From: Clostridia bacterium
GTDB lineage: Bacteria > Bacillota > Clostridia > UBA1212 > UBA1255
Direction: 5' to 3'
Assembly: GCA_017613535.1 (NCBI GenBank)
Contig: JAGADO010000053.1
Span: 1 to 36,598, forward strand
DNA length: 36,598 bases
Part shown: piece by piece, positions 21,399 through 36,523 of the stretch
Position numbering within the stretch: position 1 is the first letter of the stretch
Layout of the letters: every line of letters begins with the position of its first letter
Translations under genes and position numbers: made by a program
Notes under the pieces: generated by a model
What the model was told of the DNA's origin: nothing
The model's input: the letters and a program-made list of their open reading frames with translations, nothing else
Databases searched by the model: none

Positions 21399-22445
21399 AT
21401 GACAGCTAAGTACAGGTTTTACGGGTGGGAAACTGCCGATATTAAGGATAAATACGGCCTGACTCCGATCGATTATTACGACCTGCTTTCTGAAATATGG
21501 CAGGCGGATACTTGCGCGCCAAGGATGCGCGGAGACTGGTCGCCGGAGAACAGGACTCTCGGTCAATGCTCAATCACGGCTTTTTTAATGCAGGACCAGT
21601 TCGGCGGGAAAGTGTACGGCGTGCCGCTCAAAGGCGGAAATTATCATTGCTTCAACGTTGTCGGCGATTGCGTGTTCGACCTTACGAGCGAACAGTTCGG
21701 CGGCGTCAGACTGAATTACACGAATTGTCCCGAGCAGTTCCGCGACGTGCATTTTGCAAAAGAAGAGAAACGGCAAAGATACGAACTCCTGAAAGCACGC
21801 CTTATTGACCGCCTGCCGAAGCTCATCGAAACCGGGCGGCTAATCCTGCGCCCGTTTGTCGAGAGTGACGCTGCCGATGTTTACGAATACCTGAAAGAGC
21901 CCGCGGTCAACTGCTTTGCAAGTATGAAGCTTCATTCCCTTGACGAGGCAAGGAAAGAGATGAAAAAACGCGCCGGCGAGACGGAGTATTACTTTGCCAT
22001 CGTGCTTAAAGAAAACGGCAAGGTCATAGGAGAGATATGCGCCTATCCTGAAGCGGGCGAGCAGCATGAGGGCGAAAACGGTCAGAAAGACACGTTTAGT
22101 CCGTGCTGGATGCTGAATTTAAATTATACCGGAAAGGGCTACGCATACGAAGCGGCGCATGCGTTTTTCGACTATCTTTTTGGTGAAAAAGGGGCGAGGC
22201 GTATATACGCTTACACGGAAGACACGAACGTTCCGAGTCAGCGGCTATGTGAAAGGCTCGGCATGCGACGCGAAGGCTTGTTTATGGAGTTCAGATCATT
22301 TGTGAACAACCCCGACGGAACGCCGCGATATGAAAATACGTACCAGTATGCCATTCTGAAGAAAGAATGGCATACTGATACCGACCTGAAGAAGGCTGTT
22401 ACTCCTGATTCTTGTACGCCAGGGGATTTATGCCGTCGATCGTGA
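21399..22445 (+). CDS. YunG-like domain fused to a RimJ/RimL-type GNAT
   Basis: This 348-residue protein joins two families. Residues about 20-140 are YunG-like (CAPRMRGDWSPENRTLGQC, GGKVYGVPLKGGNYHCFNV, VFDLTSEQFGG, HFAKEEKRQRYELL); YunG has no known function. Residues about 143-325 are a RimJ/RimL-like acetyltransferase (TGRLILRPFVESDAADVYEYL, YTGKGYAYEAAHAFFDYLF, TNVPSQRLCERLGMRREG). There is no internal stop or shift at the junction (DRLPKLIETGRL), so the fusion is genuine. The last 20 codons overlap the convergent gene at 22399. Only a weak AGGATA site precedes the ATG. The YunG part may help choose the acceptor. Confidence 0.86.
   Translation: MTAKYRFYGWETADIKDKYGLTPIDYYDLLSEIWQADTCAPRMRGDWSPENRTLGQCSITAFLMQDQFGGKVYGVPLKGGNYHCFNVVGDCVFDLTSEQFGGVRLNYTNCPEQFRDVHFAKEEKRQRYELLKARLIDRLPKLIETGRLILRPFVESDAADVYEYLKEPAVNCFASMKLHSLDEARKEMKKRAGETEYYFAIVLKENGKVIGEICAYPEAGEQHEGENGQKDTFSPCWMLNLNYTGKGYAYEAAHAFFDYLFGEKGARRIYAYTEDTNVPSQRLCERLGMRREGLFMEFRSFVNNPDGTPRYENTYQYAILKKEWHTDTDLKKAVTPDSCTPGDLCRRS
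22344..22377. repeat. Perfect 13-bp inverted repeat at a convergent gene end
   Basis: CAGTATGCCATTC (22344-22356) and GAATGGCATACTG (22365-22377) form a perfect 13-bp stem with an 8-base loop. It lies inside the last codons of the YunG-GNAT gene and just beyond the end of the minus-strand gene that stops at 22399, where it could serve as a 3' hairpin for that transcript. There is no strong T-tract. Confidence 0.75.
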
Positions 22446-23517
22446 CTACGGATACGCTGTCGCCATTGTATTGATCTTTGAAAGCCGCGATAAAATCCGC
22501 CTTGCTGCAGTATACGAAATATGCTGCGCCAAAATAGCACTCCTTCACAGGCATCGCGGGGTCAGTTATATGCTCATCGGGATCAATATACAAATAGCAG
22601 CCTGCTTTGCTCTGAAGATCACCGGTCAAAAAAACGATCTCGATATTGTCAGCCCGGTCAATGAGGTCCGCGATCTCGTCCAGAGTGAATGTCACCGGAC
22701 CGCTTTCGGCAATGCCGAACGAATTATTGTACGCTTCAAGAATTGTTGACCCGAACCCGGTATACCCGGAGTTGGAGTAGTAATAAAAGCGGAAAACCTT
22801 TCCCTGGCTGGCATGCTCACTGGATTCGCCGTAAATAACGACAATGACGCCTTTTTTACCATCTTCCGCATTCTCTAATTTTGCCGGGAGCGTTATGTGG
22901 AACGGCAGTTCGTCCGCTGCATAAATGTAATTAAGATCGTTATGCTCGTTTTCTTCAGAGATCAGAAACTCGTTTTTCTGTCTTTCAAAATCAAATTCTT
23001 CTCTGTAAGATCCGCGTCCGTCGGAAACACAAAAAGAATCATCCGTTTTGCGGTAAGGATAAAAGTCTTTGTCCTCATACTTATAGCACGCAATGCTCCA
23101 GTAATATATAAAATCGGACACAGCTGTTTTATTATCGACGTTATAGTGATTTACGCCAAGTGCCAGTTCGATAGGGAAAGGCGAGCCGTTATCTATTCTT
23201 TCGGGAACAGATATCACTGCATTGAACCCGTACACCAGTGGCTTGGAAGAAGCGTCTTCGCTATCTGAAACAGTGACAGTTCTGCCGTTATATTGTACTA
23301 ACGGAATTCCGCTGTCAGAACCTGTTTTATTATCATTCTGCCGGAAAATGCTTAACGAAAACATTACAACCGACAAAACAAGCGCGAAAGCCAGAACGGA
23401 AGCCGCAACCGCTGCAAGGCGACCGGCGCTGATCTGACTTTTTTCGGCCGCTTCGGCCTCTTTCAGATAATTTTCGTCAATATTTACGAGCGCGTCATAC
23501 AACTTTTCGTTTTTCAT
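22399..23517 (-). CDS. Anti-sigma-like membrane protein partnered with the XRE-sigma4 regulator
   Basis: This 372-residue protein has a short cytoplasmic N-terminus, one TM helix (about 32-58, RLAAVAASVLAFALVLSVVM) and a large extracellular beta-rich domain of unknown family. The N-terminus (KLYDALVNIDENYLKEAEAAE) matches that of the ECF-linked protein at 33989 (KIIDAIGNINESMISAADAD), so both probably bind their regulator through it. The layout is that of transmembrane anti-sigma factors, although no zinc anti-sigma motif is present. Its ATG shares one base with the stop of the upstream regulator gene (TAATG), showing tight translational coupling. Its 3' end overlaps the convergent YunG-GNAT gene by 47 bases. 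Confidence 0.75.
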   Translation of the reverse strand: MKNEKLYDALVNIDENYLKEAEAAEKSQISAGRLAAVAASVLAFALVLSVVMFSLSIFRQNDNKTGSDSGIPLVQYNGRTVTVSDSEDASSKPLVYGFNAVISVPERIDNGSPFPIELALGVNHYNVDNKTAVSDFIYYWSIACYKYEDKDFYPYRKTDDSFCVSDGRGSYREEFDFERQKNEFLISEENEHNDLNYIYAADELPFHITLPAKLENAEDGKKGVIVVIYGESSEHASQGKVFRFYYYSNSGYTGFGSTILEAYNNSFGIAESGPVTFTLDEIADLIDRADNIEIVFLTGDLQSKAGCYLYIDPDEHITDPAMPVKECYFGAAYFVYCSKADFIAAFKDQYNGDSVSVVTIDGINPLAYKNQE

Positions 23518-23960
23518 TAAAATGACCCCCTGATATGTTTTTTGAGCTTCCTCCTGAGCCTCGTCAGAATCATTCTGACGTTGCCGTCGCTCAGGCGGAG
23601 TTTTTCCGCAATTACTTTCGTGTCGAGAAAGAAACTGTACCGCAAAACAAAAATGTTTCTCTCATTATCCGAACAATTGCCGAGGAAGGTGTTTATACGG
23701 TCTGAGATCGCCTCTTTTTCGAGGCCGGCGGGGAACAACGCTCCGAGTTCATCCAGGACCTTGTCCTCAGACTCTACAAGTAGTTCCGGGTCGATATCAA
23801 ATATCCCGGCAAGCTCCTGAACGGCTGAATAATCAGGCCTTCGATTACCGCATTCCCACTTCGAAACCAGATCGGCGGAAACGCAAAGCCGTTCGGCAAG
23901 CTGCTTCTGAGTCATATTGTTAAGCGTTCTGTACTTTTTGATCTTGTCCCCGGTCGTCAC
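23517..23960 (-). CDS. XRE-sigma4 hybrid regulator
   Basis: This 147-residue protein joins an XRE DNA-binding domain (about 4-60: IKKYRTLNNMTQKQLAERL, SADLVSKWECG, PDYSAVQELAGIF) to a sigma-70 region 4 domain (about 90-143: NERNIFVLRYSFF, VIAEKLRLSDGNVRMILTRL). The second part aligns well with region 4 of the ECF factor at 33437 (ERN, F, RY, V.M.L.R spacing). No region 2 is present, so it cannot bind -10 DNA and core polymerase as a normal sigma factor does. The GTG at 23960 is used, with GGGAGG seven bases upstream; a TTG seven codons earlier overlaps that site. The downstream anti-sigma-like gene overlaps by one base. Confidence 0.88.
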   Translation of the reverse strand: MTTGDKIKKYRTLNNMTQKQLAERLCVSADLVSKWECGNRRPDYSAVQELAGIFDIDPELLVESEDKVLDELGALFPAGLEKEAISDRINTFLGNCSDNERNIFVLRYSFFLDTKVIAEKLRLSDGNVRMILTRLRRKLKKHIRGSF

Positions 23961-23984
23961 ACCATGACCTCCCTTCCGCAAAAT

Positions 23985-24013
23985 AGTTTAAAGCATACAA
24001 AACTGATTGTAAA
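23985..24013 (-). promoter_or_regulatory. Promoter of the XRE-sigma4 operon
   Basis: On the minus strand TTTACA (24013-24008), 17 bp, TAAACT (23990-23985). An alternative with TATGCT as -10 overlaps it. The opposing gene at 24090 has only a weak candidate (TTGCAA 24033-24038 with TAATAT 24056-24061). Confidence 0.4.
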
Positions 24014-24089
24014 CGGACAAAATGCAACACATTTGCAAATACTCTTTTATTATGATAATATGAACTAAATAAACGGGAGGATCGTACTG

Positions 24090-24899
24090 ATGAGAAACCG
24101 CGCATTAAAATATGCCACAGCCGCTCTGATTATTGTCATGGTCTTAAGCTTGTGTTCTTCTTGTGTCTTTAAACTGCTTAAAGATCCTTATGATATCTAC
24201 AAGTATATCTATAACTACACCAGAAACGTGAAAAACTACGCGGCCGATATCGTCATTGATATAAATTACAACGAGACCGTTTCTAAAAAGAAGCGTTCGT
24301 GCTATCTGGGGATAACGGGTACTCTGAAAGTGACCGGTGTCGGGTCTGAAGATATGATGATGGAATCGCACCAGAAAAACGTTATTAACTCCTTCGGGTA
24401 TAAGCACACATCGGATCTCGACGTTTTTTTGACTAAAGATCGTGTTTATGAGAAAACTTCAGATATGAAGTTTTACAGGTCATATTCGCGCTCAAGTAAA
24501 GAGGGGCAATCGATCGAAAACACGGCGTTCTATCCTTTGAATATAGAATATGACAAGTCCGTCTTTTTCAGCGATTCCGCGACGGTCAATGAAGACGGCT
24601 CCAGGACTGTCAGGGCTTCTCTTTCGGAAGAGGATTTTCAGACTGTCTGGAAAGATGTAAAAAAGATGCTGGATAATATCAGTGACGACGGCACTTATAC
24701 ATACGCGAAATATTCTCTTGACTATTATTACGTTGACTATACTTTAGGCGCGGACGGAAGGCCGCTTAGTGAAGTGGTGTCTGCCAGGATCATCGGTAAA
24801 AATTCGGCTGTGGGCCCTGCTTATGATGCGGTTTATACGATCTCCTCATCTGCCGTATATACTGCATTCGGCGATGACGTGGTCATAACCGTTCCGTGA
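24090..24899 (+). CDS. Secreted hypothetical protein, possible lipoprotein
   Basis: This 269-residue protein has an N-terminal export signal (h-region YATAALIIVMVLSLC) followed by SSC, a non-standard lipobox (LCSSC). The mature part alternates charged beta strands (ADIVIDINYNE, LGITGTLKVTG, DVFLTKDRVYEKTS, KYSLDYYYVDYTLGADGRP) in the manner of LolA/LppX-like or outer-surface beta-sheet proteins. I cannot assign a family. GGGAGG (24075-24080) lies nine bases before the ATG. It is divergent from the XRE-sigma4 operon, so the signalling pair may control it, and it is followed by a PHP gene 34 bases on. Confidence 0.75.
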   Translation: MRNRALKYATAALIIVMVLSLCSSCVFKLLKDPYDIYKYIYNYTRNVKNYAADIVIDINYNETVSKKKRSCYLGITGTLKVTGVGSEDMMMESHQKNVINSFGYKHTSDLDVFLTKDRVYEKTSDMKFYRSYSRSSKEGQSIENTAFYPLNIEYDKSVFFSDSATVNEDGSRTVRASLSEEDFQTVWKDVKKMLDNISDDGTYTYAKYSLDYYYVDYTLGADGRPLSEVVSARIIGKNSAVGPAYDAVYTISSSAVYTAFGDDVVITVP

Positions 24900-33436: not shown

Positions 33437-33988
33437 ATGGAAGACAGTATTATCACCGGCCTGATCGCCGAGCGTAACGAAGCAGGGCTTCAGGCTGCAA
33501 GGGAAAAATACGGTAAATACGTTGAGACCGTTGTCGGCAACGTTCTAAGTGACGTTTCGGATGCGGAGGAATGCGTAAATGACGTTTTCCTCGGGGCCTG
33601 GGATGCCGTGCCGAGAGCATTGCCGTCGAATCTTAAATTCTTCCTTGCCAAACTGGCGAGGGAGAAAGCCATCGATCGTCTGAGAAGCAATTCCGCTCAG
33701 AAACGTGGCGGAAAAGTCAGCTTCGTGCCCGAGGAGGAACTGGATAAAGCACTTTCCGGTTCTGTTGTGTCCGACCGGATCGAATCGGCCGAACTGACTG
33801 AACTCATAACAAATTTCCTGCGCGGGCTTGAGGGGCAGGAAAGGAATGTTTTCATAAGAAGATACTGGTATTTCGACGCCATAGAGGACATTGCGCAGAG
33901 GTACGGGTTCGGAAAGAGCAAAGTGAAAATGATGCTGAAGCGTATGCGCGACAGATTGGCCGCCTATCTCAAGAAAGAAGGATACTGA
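33437..33988 (+). CDS. ECF-type RNA polymerase sigma factor
   Basis: This 183-residue sigma-70 family protein has region 2 (about 20-90: YVETVVGNVLSDVSDAEEC, NDVFLGAWDAV, FFLAKLAREKAIDRLR) and region 4 (about 123-178: ERNVFIRRYWYF, IEDIAQRYGFGKSKVKMMLK). It is the ECF layout without regions 1.1 and 3. AAAGGAGAGG lies a few bases before the ATG. The stop codon is immediately followed by the ATG of a large membrane protein (33989), so the pair is translated together, as sigma and anti-sigma genes usually are. Region 4 is closely similar to that of the XRE-sigma4 hybrid at 23517. Confidence 0.92.
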   Translation: MEDSIITGLIAERNEAGLQAAREKYGKYVETVVGNVLSDVSDAEECVNDVFLGAWDAVPRALPSNLKFFLAKLAREKAIDRLRSNSAQKRGGKVSFVPEEELDKALSGSVVSDRIESAELTELITNFLRGLEGQERNVFIRRYWYFDAIEDIAQRYGFGKSKVKMMLKRMRDRLAAYLKKEGY

Positions 33989-36523
33989 ATGAAAAGCGAT
34001 AAAATAATAGACGCGATCGGAAATATAAACGAATCGATGATAAGCGCGGCTGACGCGGATATCTCCGCCGATACGGCTTCTGCAAACGGATTTGCATCCG
34101 GTACACGGAGAACGGCAGGCGAAAGACGCGGAAGAAAAACCGGAGCGATAGCAGGGATCATTGCCGCCGTGGTTGCAGTTGCCGGGATCAGCGCCGGTAT
34201 CATTCTGGGGTACAGAGCAAACCGCGGGCATGATAATCCTGCAATCATTTCTGCAACGGATGACGTGCACGGAACACAAACTCCCGCCGCCACGTCTGTA
34301 TCGGCTCCAACCGCTATACCCGTAATAACCGGCGACGCAGCGATCGCGCCTTTGAAAACGCTCTGGTATGAGATCGACAATACCGGTTTGACTGTCCCGA
34401 TGACGTACAAAGAGTTCCTTTCCGGCCTCGGTAAGATGGATGACGAAGGCAGGCCGCTGCTTAAACTGTTGGGCGATCCCGCGGAGATCCCCGATGATCA
34501 GTCAGGCAAGTATGAGTTGGAAAGTGTCGGATTTACCGGGCGGTTTTACCGCATATTTTCGCCCGACGGCTCAGAATTGGAGCGGAACGTTGTTCAGTAT
34601 ATGTTATTTAAAAACATAAACGGAGCGCCTGAACCTCTCGGCATTAAGATCGGCGACAGCATCGAAACGGTGTTGACGAAACTCGGCATAGGGGAGCTTG
34701 CCGAAAACGTCTGGGAAAGAGGGAAACGGACATTTGCCGCGGAAGTGGACGGCACAAGGCTCGAGGCGGATCTTATCTGCGAAAAGCATCGGGATTTTGA
34801 GGATCTCGGGCTTGCGGTCACTTTATTGATCCGAATGGAAGAGGCGCTGGGTGACGGCAGGTATCATGCGAAAAATATGAGTTTCGCATTCGTGGAGGAA
34901 CCCAACGTGCTGCTGTCGTGGACGGTAATGGTCGTTCTCGATAAAGACGAGTACAGAAGCCTGCCGCTCAACATTCCTACGCCAGCTCCGGCGACGGCAA
35001 CGCCCGGACCCACCGAAGTGCTGAAAGACAATACGTTCAGCATCGGATTCGTTGACAATAAACTCCACATCACCGATCCGACGTATGAAGTATCGGTATA
35101 TCTGGCCGGTACGCGGGCTAACAACAACGAGGACAATAAACTTATTGCCTTCTTCAAGGACGCACTCGAAGGCAAAGCGCTGGATGACACGTATCCTTTC
35201 AACGTAATAAAATATACGGTAAGCCAGGGCCATTACAACTACCGGCTGGTGCCGTACGGATCCGATTCCGGATATGATCTGTATTTCCAATACGGCTCCA
35301 CGACGCAGGAGATGTGGATCATCAATTCCGCCGACAATACGTGCGTAGGAAGCATCGCGTTTACGGACGAAGAATACATCACTTTGTACTACGCCATCTC
35401 GGACGCCGCGTTCAAGGTCAACGGAGATATGCTTCTGAAAGACGGCGACCCCGTTAAAATACGCATAACCGACCGTAAATACAACGAAAAATGGCTGTAC
35501 TCCTCCGGAGAGATCGAGCGCATGAAACAGCTGATCTCCAATTTAAGGATAACCAGTATGACTGAAATAGATCCGTCGGACGGGATATTCAGCTGGGAAT
35601 ATGCACTCAGATTTTATTACGCCGACGGTTCTGTGAGCGAGTTCAAGACGAACGGCTACACCTTGTGGACGGTCGACAATAAAACGTTGTGTCAAGATTC
35701 CTCTGACGCGTCGCTGTTCGAATTCTTCGATTCATTCGCAGACGAGACCGGGATCCAGCCTGACGTCGATATACCGGTCAATGAATCGCCCTTTGTTATT
35801 GCCCGCACGGGTGATACGTTCCGGTTCGAGCGCATTGACACGGTACCGAAAGTGGTGTTGAATGCGACCGCATACAACAGCGGAAAGACACTGGACAATA
35901 CGAACGGCCGTATAACCGAATTTGTCCGCGAACTGCTCGAAGGAAAGCAAATAAATATTCTGAATCAGACCAGGCCCCAGATGACGTACTGTGAATTCTG
36001 GCTCGATTTCATCCCGGAGGACGGCAGCAGCCTGTACGGGTACAGGCTGGCGTACAATTTCAAGTACAGAACGCTGAGGGTCACAGATCTTACGGAGGAC
36101 AACACGTTCGCTAACGTTCCGATCACCGATGAAGAACTGGGAGAACTGGTCGCATTTCTGTTCGGGTCAACGGCTCTTGATCTGCCCGATGCGTCCGGGA
36201 TCAGGAGAATCGACATAACCGCCACGTTCCTCAATAAGGAAGTCAACAGCGTTACGCTTACGGATCAGGACGGGATCGGATCACTGATGAGCATGTTCAG
36301 CTCACTGAAACCAATCGTTTCGGAGACAGGCAAAAGTTCTATTGACGCCTATGAGATATACTATTATGATATCTGGTGTACGGATAACACGCTGTGGAAA
36401 GTAAAAACGTACGGATCAGTTATCGAGATCAGCAAAGGGCAGGAAACGAAGAACTATTATATATTCCTTTGCGACTATGAAGCGTTCTATCCTGCACTGG
36501 AACTGATAATCCCGGTAAACTGA
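33989..36523 (+). CDS. Large anti-sigma-like membrane protein with duplicated extracellular domain
   Basis: This 844-residue protein has a cytoplasmic N-terminus (1-50, starting with KIIDAIGNINESMISAADAD), one TM helix (52-75) and a long extracellular part. From about 345 the sequence is an internal duplication of roughly 230-260 residues: FFKDALEGKALD / FVRELLEGKQIN, GYDLYFQYGSTTQEMWI / GYRLAYNFKYRTLRV, ITDRKYNEK / ITATFLNKE and following segments correspond in order. A Thr/Pro linker (PTPAPATATPGPT) precedes the repeats. Its start abuts the sigma stop, with an AAGGA-type site inside the sigma gene. The role as regulator of the sigma factor is inferred from gene order and topology; no known anti-sigma domain is recognised. 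Confidence 0.78.
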   Translation: MKSDKIIDAIGNINESMISAADADISADTASANGFASGTRRTAGERRGRKTGAIAGIIAAVVAVAGISAGIILGYRANRGHDNPAIISATDDVHGTQTPAATSVSAPTAIPVITGDAAIAPLKTLWYEIDNTGLTVPMTYKEFLSGLGKMDDEGRPLLKLLGDPAEIPDDQSGKYELESVGFTGRFYRIFSPDGSELERNVVQYMLFKNINGAPEPLGIKIGDSIETVLTKLGIGELAENVWERGKRTFAAEVDGTRLEADLICEKHRDFEDLGLAVTLLIRMEEALGDGRYHAKNMSFAFVEEPNVLLSWTVMVVLDKDEYRSLPLNIPTPAPATATPGPTEVLKDNTFSIGFVDNKLHITDPTYEVSVYLAGTRANNNEDNKLIAFFKDALEGKALDDTYPFNVIKYTVSQGHYNYRLVPYGSDSGYDLYFQYGSTTQEMWIINSADNTCVGSIAFTDEEYITLYYAISDAAFKVNGDMLLKDGDPVKIRITDRKYNEKWLYSSGEIERMKQLISNLRITSMTEIDPSDGIFSWEYALRFYYADGSVSEFKTNGYTLWTVDNKTLCQDSSDASLFEFFDSFADETGIQPDVDIPVNESPFVIARTGDTFRFERIDTVPKVVLNATAYNSGKTLDNTNGRITEFVRELLEGKQINILNQTRPQMTYCEFWLDFIPEDGSSLYGYRLAYNFKYRTLRVTDLTEDNTFANVPITDEELGELVAFLFGSTALDLPDASGIRRIDITATFLNKEVNSVTLTDQDGIGSLMSMFSSLKPIVSETGKSSIDAYEIYYYDIWCTDNTLWKVKTYGSVIEISKGQETKNYYIFLCDYEAFYPALELIIPVN

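Follow-up and report, generated by a model that had tools for sequence, protein, structure and literature searches.

In ECF sigma factors, region 2 is responsible for core binding and for melting of the -10 element. Two-subunit sigma factors of the SigO-RsoA type carry region 4 on a polypeptide of its own, and the positive control sigma-like factors that prophages encode, of the Xpf type (NF005385), resemble region 4 at their C-terminus. Among the better described ways of controlling or replacing region 4, the membrane anti-sigma factor RsbN keeps region 4 of BldN off the -35 element (PMC8103513), the lambda cI protein acts as an activator when bound just upstream of -35, where it touches sigma region 4 (PMC4496699), and T4 AsiA takes over the role of region 4 at promoters that keep the sigma-70 -10 element (PMC6755090).

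Here we describe a gene pair from a Clostridia bacterium, encoded in a DNA stretch of 36,598 nucleotides that was analysed as a whole (the window), in which region 4 is fused to an XRE domain and the fusion is followed by a membrane protein. The pair has in common with the BldN-RsbN type a region 4, the operon layout and a single-TM partner with a short cytoplasmic N-terminus, and related genomes have ECF sigma factors whose partners carry the N-terminal motif of the hybrid's partner; it differs in that the hybrid has an XRE domain and no region 2, that the TATAAT of its promoters is not an ECF -10 element, and that the partner motif is not catalogued as an anti-sigma domain. To our knowledge no protein with this XRE-region 4 architecture has been characterised, and a literature search for such fusions, whose coverage left out most subscription journals, found no paper.

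An XRE domain occupies the place of region 2

The hybrid gene lies at 23517-23960 on the minus strand, as do its partner and promoter described below, and encodes 147 residues from a GTG start at 23960 to a stop codon at 23517-23519, with a Shine-Dalgarno sequence (GGGAGG, 23968-23973) 5' of the GTG. The original prediction, that an XRE domain stands in the position of region 2 and is followed by a sigma region 4, was borne out by Pfam scores and by a structural model. The XRE domain (HTH_3, residues 7-61, 23778-23942) scored 46.5 bits against a cut-off of 23, and region 4 (residues 97-141, 23538-23672, within a structural domain of residues 78-147) scored 34.4 bits with Sigma70_r4 (cut-off 24.1) and 29.5 bits with Sigma70_r4_2 (cut-off 25.7). 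The Pfam search returned no Sigma70_r2 match in the hybrid, residues 1-65 of which are XRE, and the XRE domain is in the place of region 2. Compared with an ECF sigma factor, the hybrid has region 4, lacks region 2 and has no ECF-type -10 in its promoters; compared with XRE family regulators, it has both the HTH_3 match above cut-off and the XRE fold.

That the C-terminus is a sigma region 4, and not a generic helix-turn-helix of the LuxR or XRE type, held up on several grounds. GerE, the LuxR-type alternative, scored 18.6 bits, below its cut-off of 23.5, and TIGR02937 (sigma70-ECF) scored 58.1 bits over profile positions 102-164 only, which is its C-terminal, region-4 part. The conserved core of region 4 (F104, R107, Y108 and R136) is kept. 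Searched against PDB sequences, a profile of the hybrid family matched SinR, C2 and ImmR with its N-terminal half and SigF region 4 with its C-terminal half, and no PDB entry was named as an XRE-region 4 fusion. In an AF2 model built from 17 sequences (mean pLDDT 90.2, pTM 0.71), residues 1-65 overlay the P22 c2 repressor at 1.6 A (Z 12.6). Residues 78-147 overlay residues 120-189 of E. coli sigma-E over 70 residues at 2.0 A (Z 10.2), and they also align with region 4 of M. tuberculosis SigL. The likeness to the Xpf type is confined to the C-terminal region 4 (21.5 bits, cut-off 136), and those factors have no XRE domain.

The hybrid has in common with the SigO-RsoA type a region 4 whose polypeptide lacks region 2; it differs in the fusion to XRE and in the membrane partner. 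A separate region-2 protein was considered as a second subunit of the hybrid. In this genome, which is 82% complete, all region-2 matches lie in open frames of at least 184 codons, and no small gene encoding region 2 alone was seen.

An overlapping gene pair that recurs across three genera

The hybrid stop codon and the partner start codon overlap as TAATG (23517-23521), TAA and ATG having one base in common, and the partner (22399-23517, 372 residues, no Pfam family) has one predicted TM helix at about residues 34-52 (23362-23418, hydropathy scan), so that the overlap and the single pass both match what had been predicted. At its other end the partner gene overlaps tail-to-tail, by 47 bp, with a plus-strand gene (21399-22445) whose product joins a YunG domain to a GNAT acetyltransferase. 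The pairing is conserved in relatives, where the gene of a single-TM protein directly follows the hybrid gene in 57 of the 61 loci examined, starting at or within the hybrid stop, and the two genes overlap in 55 of these 57 paired loci. Architecture and pairing recur in dozens of relatives, which rules out chance.

Of 31 genomes in the order, 14 contain matches to the hybrid, 73 in total, 70 of them covering both domains. These 14 genomes belong to three genera and comprise all seven of the window's genus, all six of a second genus (g11) and one further genome (G017). Six full-length copies are present in this genome and up to 14 copies, full or partial, in single genomes of the three genera; they fall into two subfamilies of about 147 and about 160 residues. 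Beyond the order one hybrid was found, in a genome (G342) from another family of the same class. With the ten best candidates of each genome scored, hybrids were confined to the order and G342 in a class sample of 391 genomes, and were found in the window's own genome alone in a phylum sample of 398 genomes. An origin from phages or plasmids was rejected, viral contigs yielding partial, mostly XRE-only profile matches and a plasmid collection yielding none. In genome G023, three hybrid copies with near-identical promoters lie within about 7 kb of contig C24 (33448-40700), two of them interrupted by stops, which suggests tandem duplication followed by decay.

The partner resembles the partners of ECF sigma factors

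Hydropathy places one TM helix in each partner, at about residue 34-58, and from this the topology was inferred. The ectodomains vary: a serpin in one partner (E 1.4e-82), VWA domains in up to five, cyclophilin-like and SpaA-type domains, and unrecognised ones, among them that of the window partner. Diverse ectodomains such as VWA, serpin and cyclophilin-like domains are expected of sensors, which here may watch proteases or surface ligands. As would an anti-sigma factor, the partner adjoins the gene of its factor and has a single TM helix and, by hydropathy, a cytoplasmic N-terminus; it has no recognised anti-sigma domain, and none was found by Pfam in 46 partners.

The cytoplasmic N-terminus of the window partner (residues 1-30, 23428-23517) carries the motif MKNEKLYDALVNIDENYLKEAE, identified with a profile of hybrid partners, and in subfamily 1 the N-terminal motif takes the form M-x(4)-LYDA-x(3)-IDxxyvexA. 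Complete ECF sigma factors of the same and related genomes have partners of like layout with similar N-termini, for example MKSDKIIDAIGNINESMISAA. A search of about 10,000 ORFs with the 30-residue profile of hybrid-partner N-termini gave, as best matches outside the hybrid loci, partners of complete ECF sigma factors (E 3.5e-5 at locus L054), with weaker matches to ECF partners at L048, L026, L027 and L029 (E 0.075 to 6). Since region 4 is the sole domain that hybrids and ECF factors have in common, the partner motif most likely binds region 4. The motif found in ECF partners lends support to the part of the original prediction that concerned an anti-sigma-like tether. The partner may keep the hybrid membrane-bound until it receives an outside signal.

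The missing anti-sigma domain and the highly diverse ectodomains would also suit an independent surface protein that is co-transcribed with the regulator and tethers nothing, but the near-universal gene overlap, the one TM helix in each partner and the cytoplasmic motif common to ECF partners all speak against this explanation, which we regard as very improbable.

The window contains a second such signalling pair on its plus strand, a complete ECF sigma factor (33437-33988) and an adjoining gene (33989-36523) for an 844-residue single-TM partner with an N-terminal motif of the same type. The region upstream of this ECF gene contains ATTTGTGAC-N16-ACGGGTATAAT.

A composite promoter element abuts the -35 region

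Nearly all hybrid genes are preceded by a composite promoter in which GTTRC-N-TTTTGTNNC stands at a fixed 30-31 bp from a housekeeping TATAAT. In subfamily 1 the element reads TGTTGCGTTTTGTCCCTTTACA and precedes a -10 of the TATAAT type, and in subfamily 2 it reads ATGTTACCTTTTGTGGCAAAA, in the same register; motif likelihoods were 345 and 188, respectively, against about 100 and 83 in shuffles. Of 54 promoters, 32 have the element in its strict form (shuffle mean 0.43, maximum 3 in 200 shuffles), and the distance from the TTTGT core, which is centred near -42, to the -10 is 30 or 31 bp in 45 of 53. In the window, the upstream element TTGCATTTTGTCC lies at 24015-24027 (TTTGT core at 24017-24021), next to a -35-like hexamer, TTTACA (24008-24013), and a -10 hexamer, TAAACT (23985-23990), 31 bp downstream of the core. 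A pattern search with the window version, TTGCRTTTTGTCCNTTTACA, allowing up to three mismatches, found a single occurrence in the 2.66 Mb genome, at the hybrid promoter. Divergent from the hybrid, at a distance of 129 bp, is a plus-strand gene (24090-24899) for a predicted lipoprotein that has no Pfam family. The element lies between the two genes and could work for both of them.

These promoters strongly support the predicted XRE-guided factor acting near -35, and they resemble, in sequence, those of class-II activators of the lambda cI type, with a conserved element that abuts -35 at a fixed distance from the -10. At PRM, too, an XRE-fold protein stands just upstream of -35, centred near -42; the difference is that cI touches region 4 of the resident sigma factor, whereas the hybrid has a region 4 of its own and a membrane partner. 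The -35 hexamer departs from TTGACA at three or more of its six positions in 22 of 43 promoters, which makes an activator plausible. TATAAT needs the region 2 of the housekeeping factor, so that a factor without region 2 can work at these promoters if DNA melting is left to the holoenzyme. With TATAAT present in the hybrid promoters, it is probably the housekeeping sigma factor that makes up for the missing region 2. We give somewhat better than even weight to the reading that the hybrid is a membrane-controlled, class-II-type activator of sigma-A promoters, subject to positive autoregulation and held by its partner via region 4.

Genome scans with a sequence profile from 28 promoters gave six sites with E<0.005 in this genome. 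Five lie directly before the five subfamily-1 hybrids, and the sixth, at a contig end (G000:C9:147-192, minus strand), is a copy of the composite promoter whose hybrid was probably lost to an assembly gap. Five hybrid-free genomes had no site under E 0.018, and in G342, whose hybrid was outside the training set, the element before the hybrid was the best match of the genome; most other matches are training promoters, and the scan therefore speaks for specificity and not for recall. Of ten sites at E <=0.002 that do not stand before a hybrid, nine, as a raw count, are upstream of genes whose predicted products are lipoproteins, secreted or membrane proteins. The best site of all (G023:C44:12315) precedes a gene of the exported or membrane type; the best sites in this genome lie before the hybrids themselves, and those in other genomes also before genes for exported proteins or lipoproteins.

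Autorepression is usual among XRE proteins, and a hybrid that represses its own operon from an operator abutting -35, with region 4 as a second DNA-binding domain only and the partner relieving or modulating repression, would account for the near-restriction of sites in this genome to the family's own promoters and for the perfect dyads that some sites form (for example GTGACA-N5-TGTCAC). About a fifth of the promoters, including that of the window, have a near-consensus -35 and could fire without an activator, but a consensus -35 is absent from many others, the sites are centred near -42, the position of an activator, and not over -35 to -10, and trans sites precede exported protein genes. 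We consider autorepression unlikely.

Which domain reads which part of the site

Among ECF factors in the clade of the window's ECF factor, 11 of 32 have TTGTGAC in the upstream region, where shuffles give 0.43; an ECF-like -10 commonly follows 16 bp downstream. At loci L354-L375 and L034, TTGTGAC is followed, often after N16, by GCGTCTTA, ACGG or GGTAC, which is likely to represent an autoregulated type of ECF promoter. The invariant core of the hybrid element, TTGTNNC, is close to this sequence and, region 4 being the domain common to hybrids and ECF factors, may be read by region 4, with the upstream part left to XRE. Matrix correlations, which are confounded by shared ancestry, link site similarity to region 4 more than to XRE.

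Against a simple carry-over from the ECF promoters, the TTGTNNC of the hybrids stands about 4-5 bp farther from the start site than the -35 does there. This distance bears also on another possibility, in which region 4 of the hybrid would sit on the beta flap instead of sigma-A region 4, sigma-A region 2 would occupy TATAAT and XRE would pick the promoter. Such an arrangement would parallel, in a cell, the sigma appropriation of T4, or a split sigma factor whose region 2 comes from the housekeeping sigma. It would draw on the retained ECF fold and region-4 core residues, on the poor -35 that accompanies a TATAAT -10 in many promoters, above all in subfamily 2, and on the precedent of T4 AsiA, in which another protein does the job of region 4 on RNA polymerase (PMC6755090). 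The common point with AsiA/MotA is that the role of region 4 may be taken over where a sigma-70 -10 is kept, but AsiA is a phage factor that has no homology to region 4 and is under no membrane control. Against replacement, TTGTNNC lies upstream of the position that RNA polymerase-bound region 4 would read, and many promoters retain a sigma-A-like -35 just downstream of the core. We think it doubtful that region 4 is replaced in this way, and equally doubtful that these hybrids form a cellular, trans-acting region-4 family which, freed from the membrane by outside signals, displaces sigma-A region 4 at XRE-marked promoters. As the original prediction had it, region 4 may touch RNA polymerase.

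Discussion

Read from the sequence, the architecture, the pairing, the motif shared with ECF partners and the promoter element with its geometry are consistent with a module for transmembrane signalling that descends from an ECF sigma/anti-sigma pair and in which XRE would have replaced region 2 and the hybrid would have ceased to act as a sigma factor. According to this activator model, the hybrid would bind the composite element at about -50 to -35, XRE probably reading the upstream part and region 4 probably TTGTNNC, and once bound would activate the promoter, the TATAAT -10 being melted by the housekeeping holoenzyme as with lambda cI at PRM. The partner would keep the hybrid inactive through its cytoplasmic motif of about 30 residues placed on region 4 until a signal at the ectodomain frees it, and the free hybrid would raise expression of its own operon and, in some genomes, also of lipoprotein and secreted protein genes.

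The family suggests a route from an ECF sigma/anti-sigma pair to a membrane-controlled activator of ordinary promoters, along which region 4 and the membrane tether would be kept and region 2 exchanged for a DNA-binding domain. Each copy comes with a sensor ectodomain and a promoter element of its own. The family allows a clean test of whether region 4, once separated from region 2, can function on RNA polymerase or simply as an activator that binds DNA, and it is a possible source of orthogonal, signal-responsive switches on sigma-A promoters. What is new is an ECF/anti-sigma-like module with a different output, one that probably carries outside signals to ordinary promoters.
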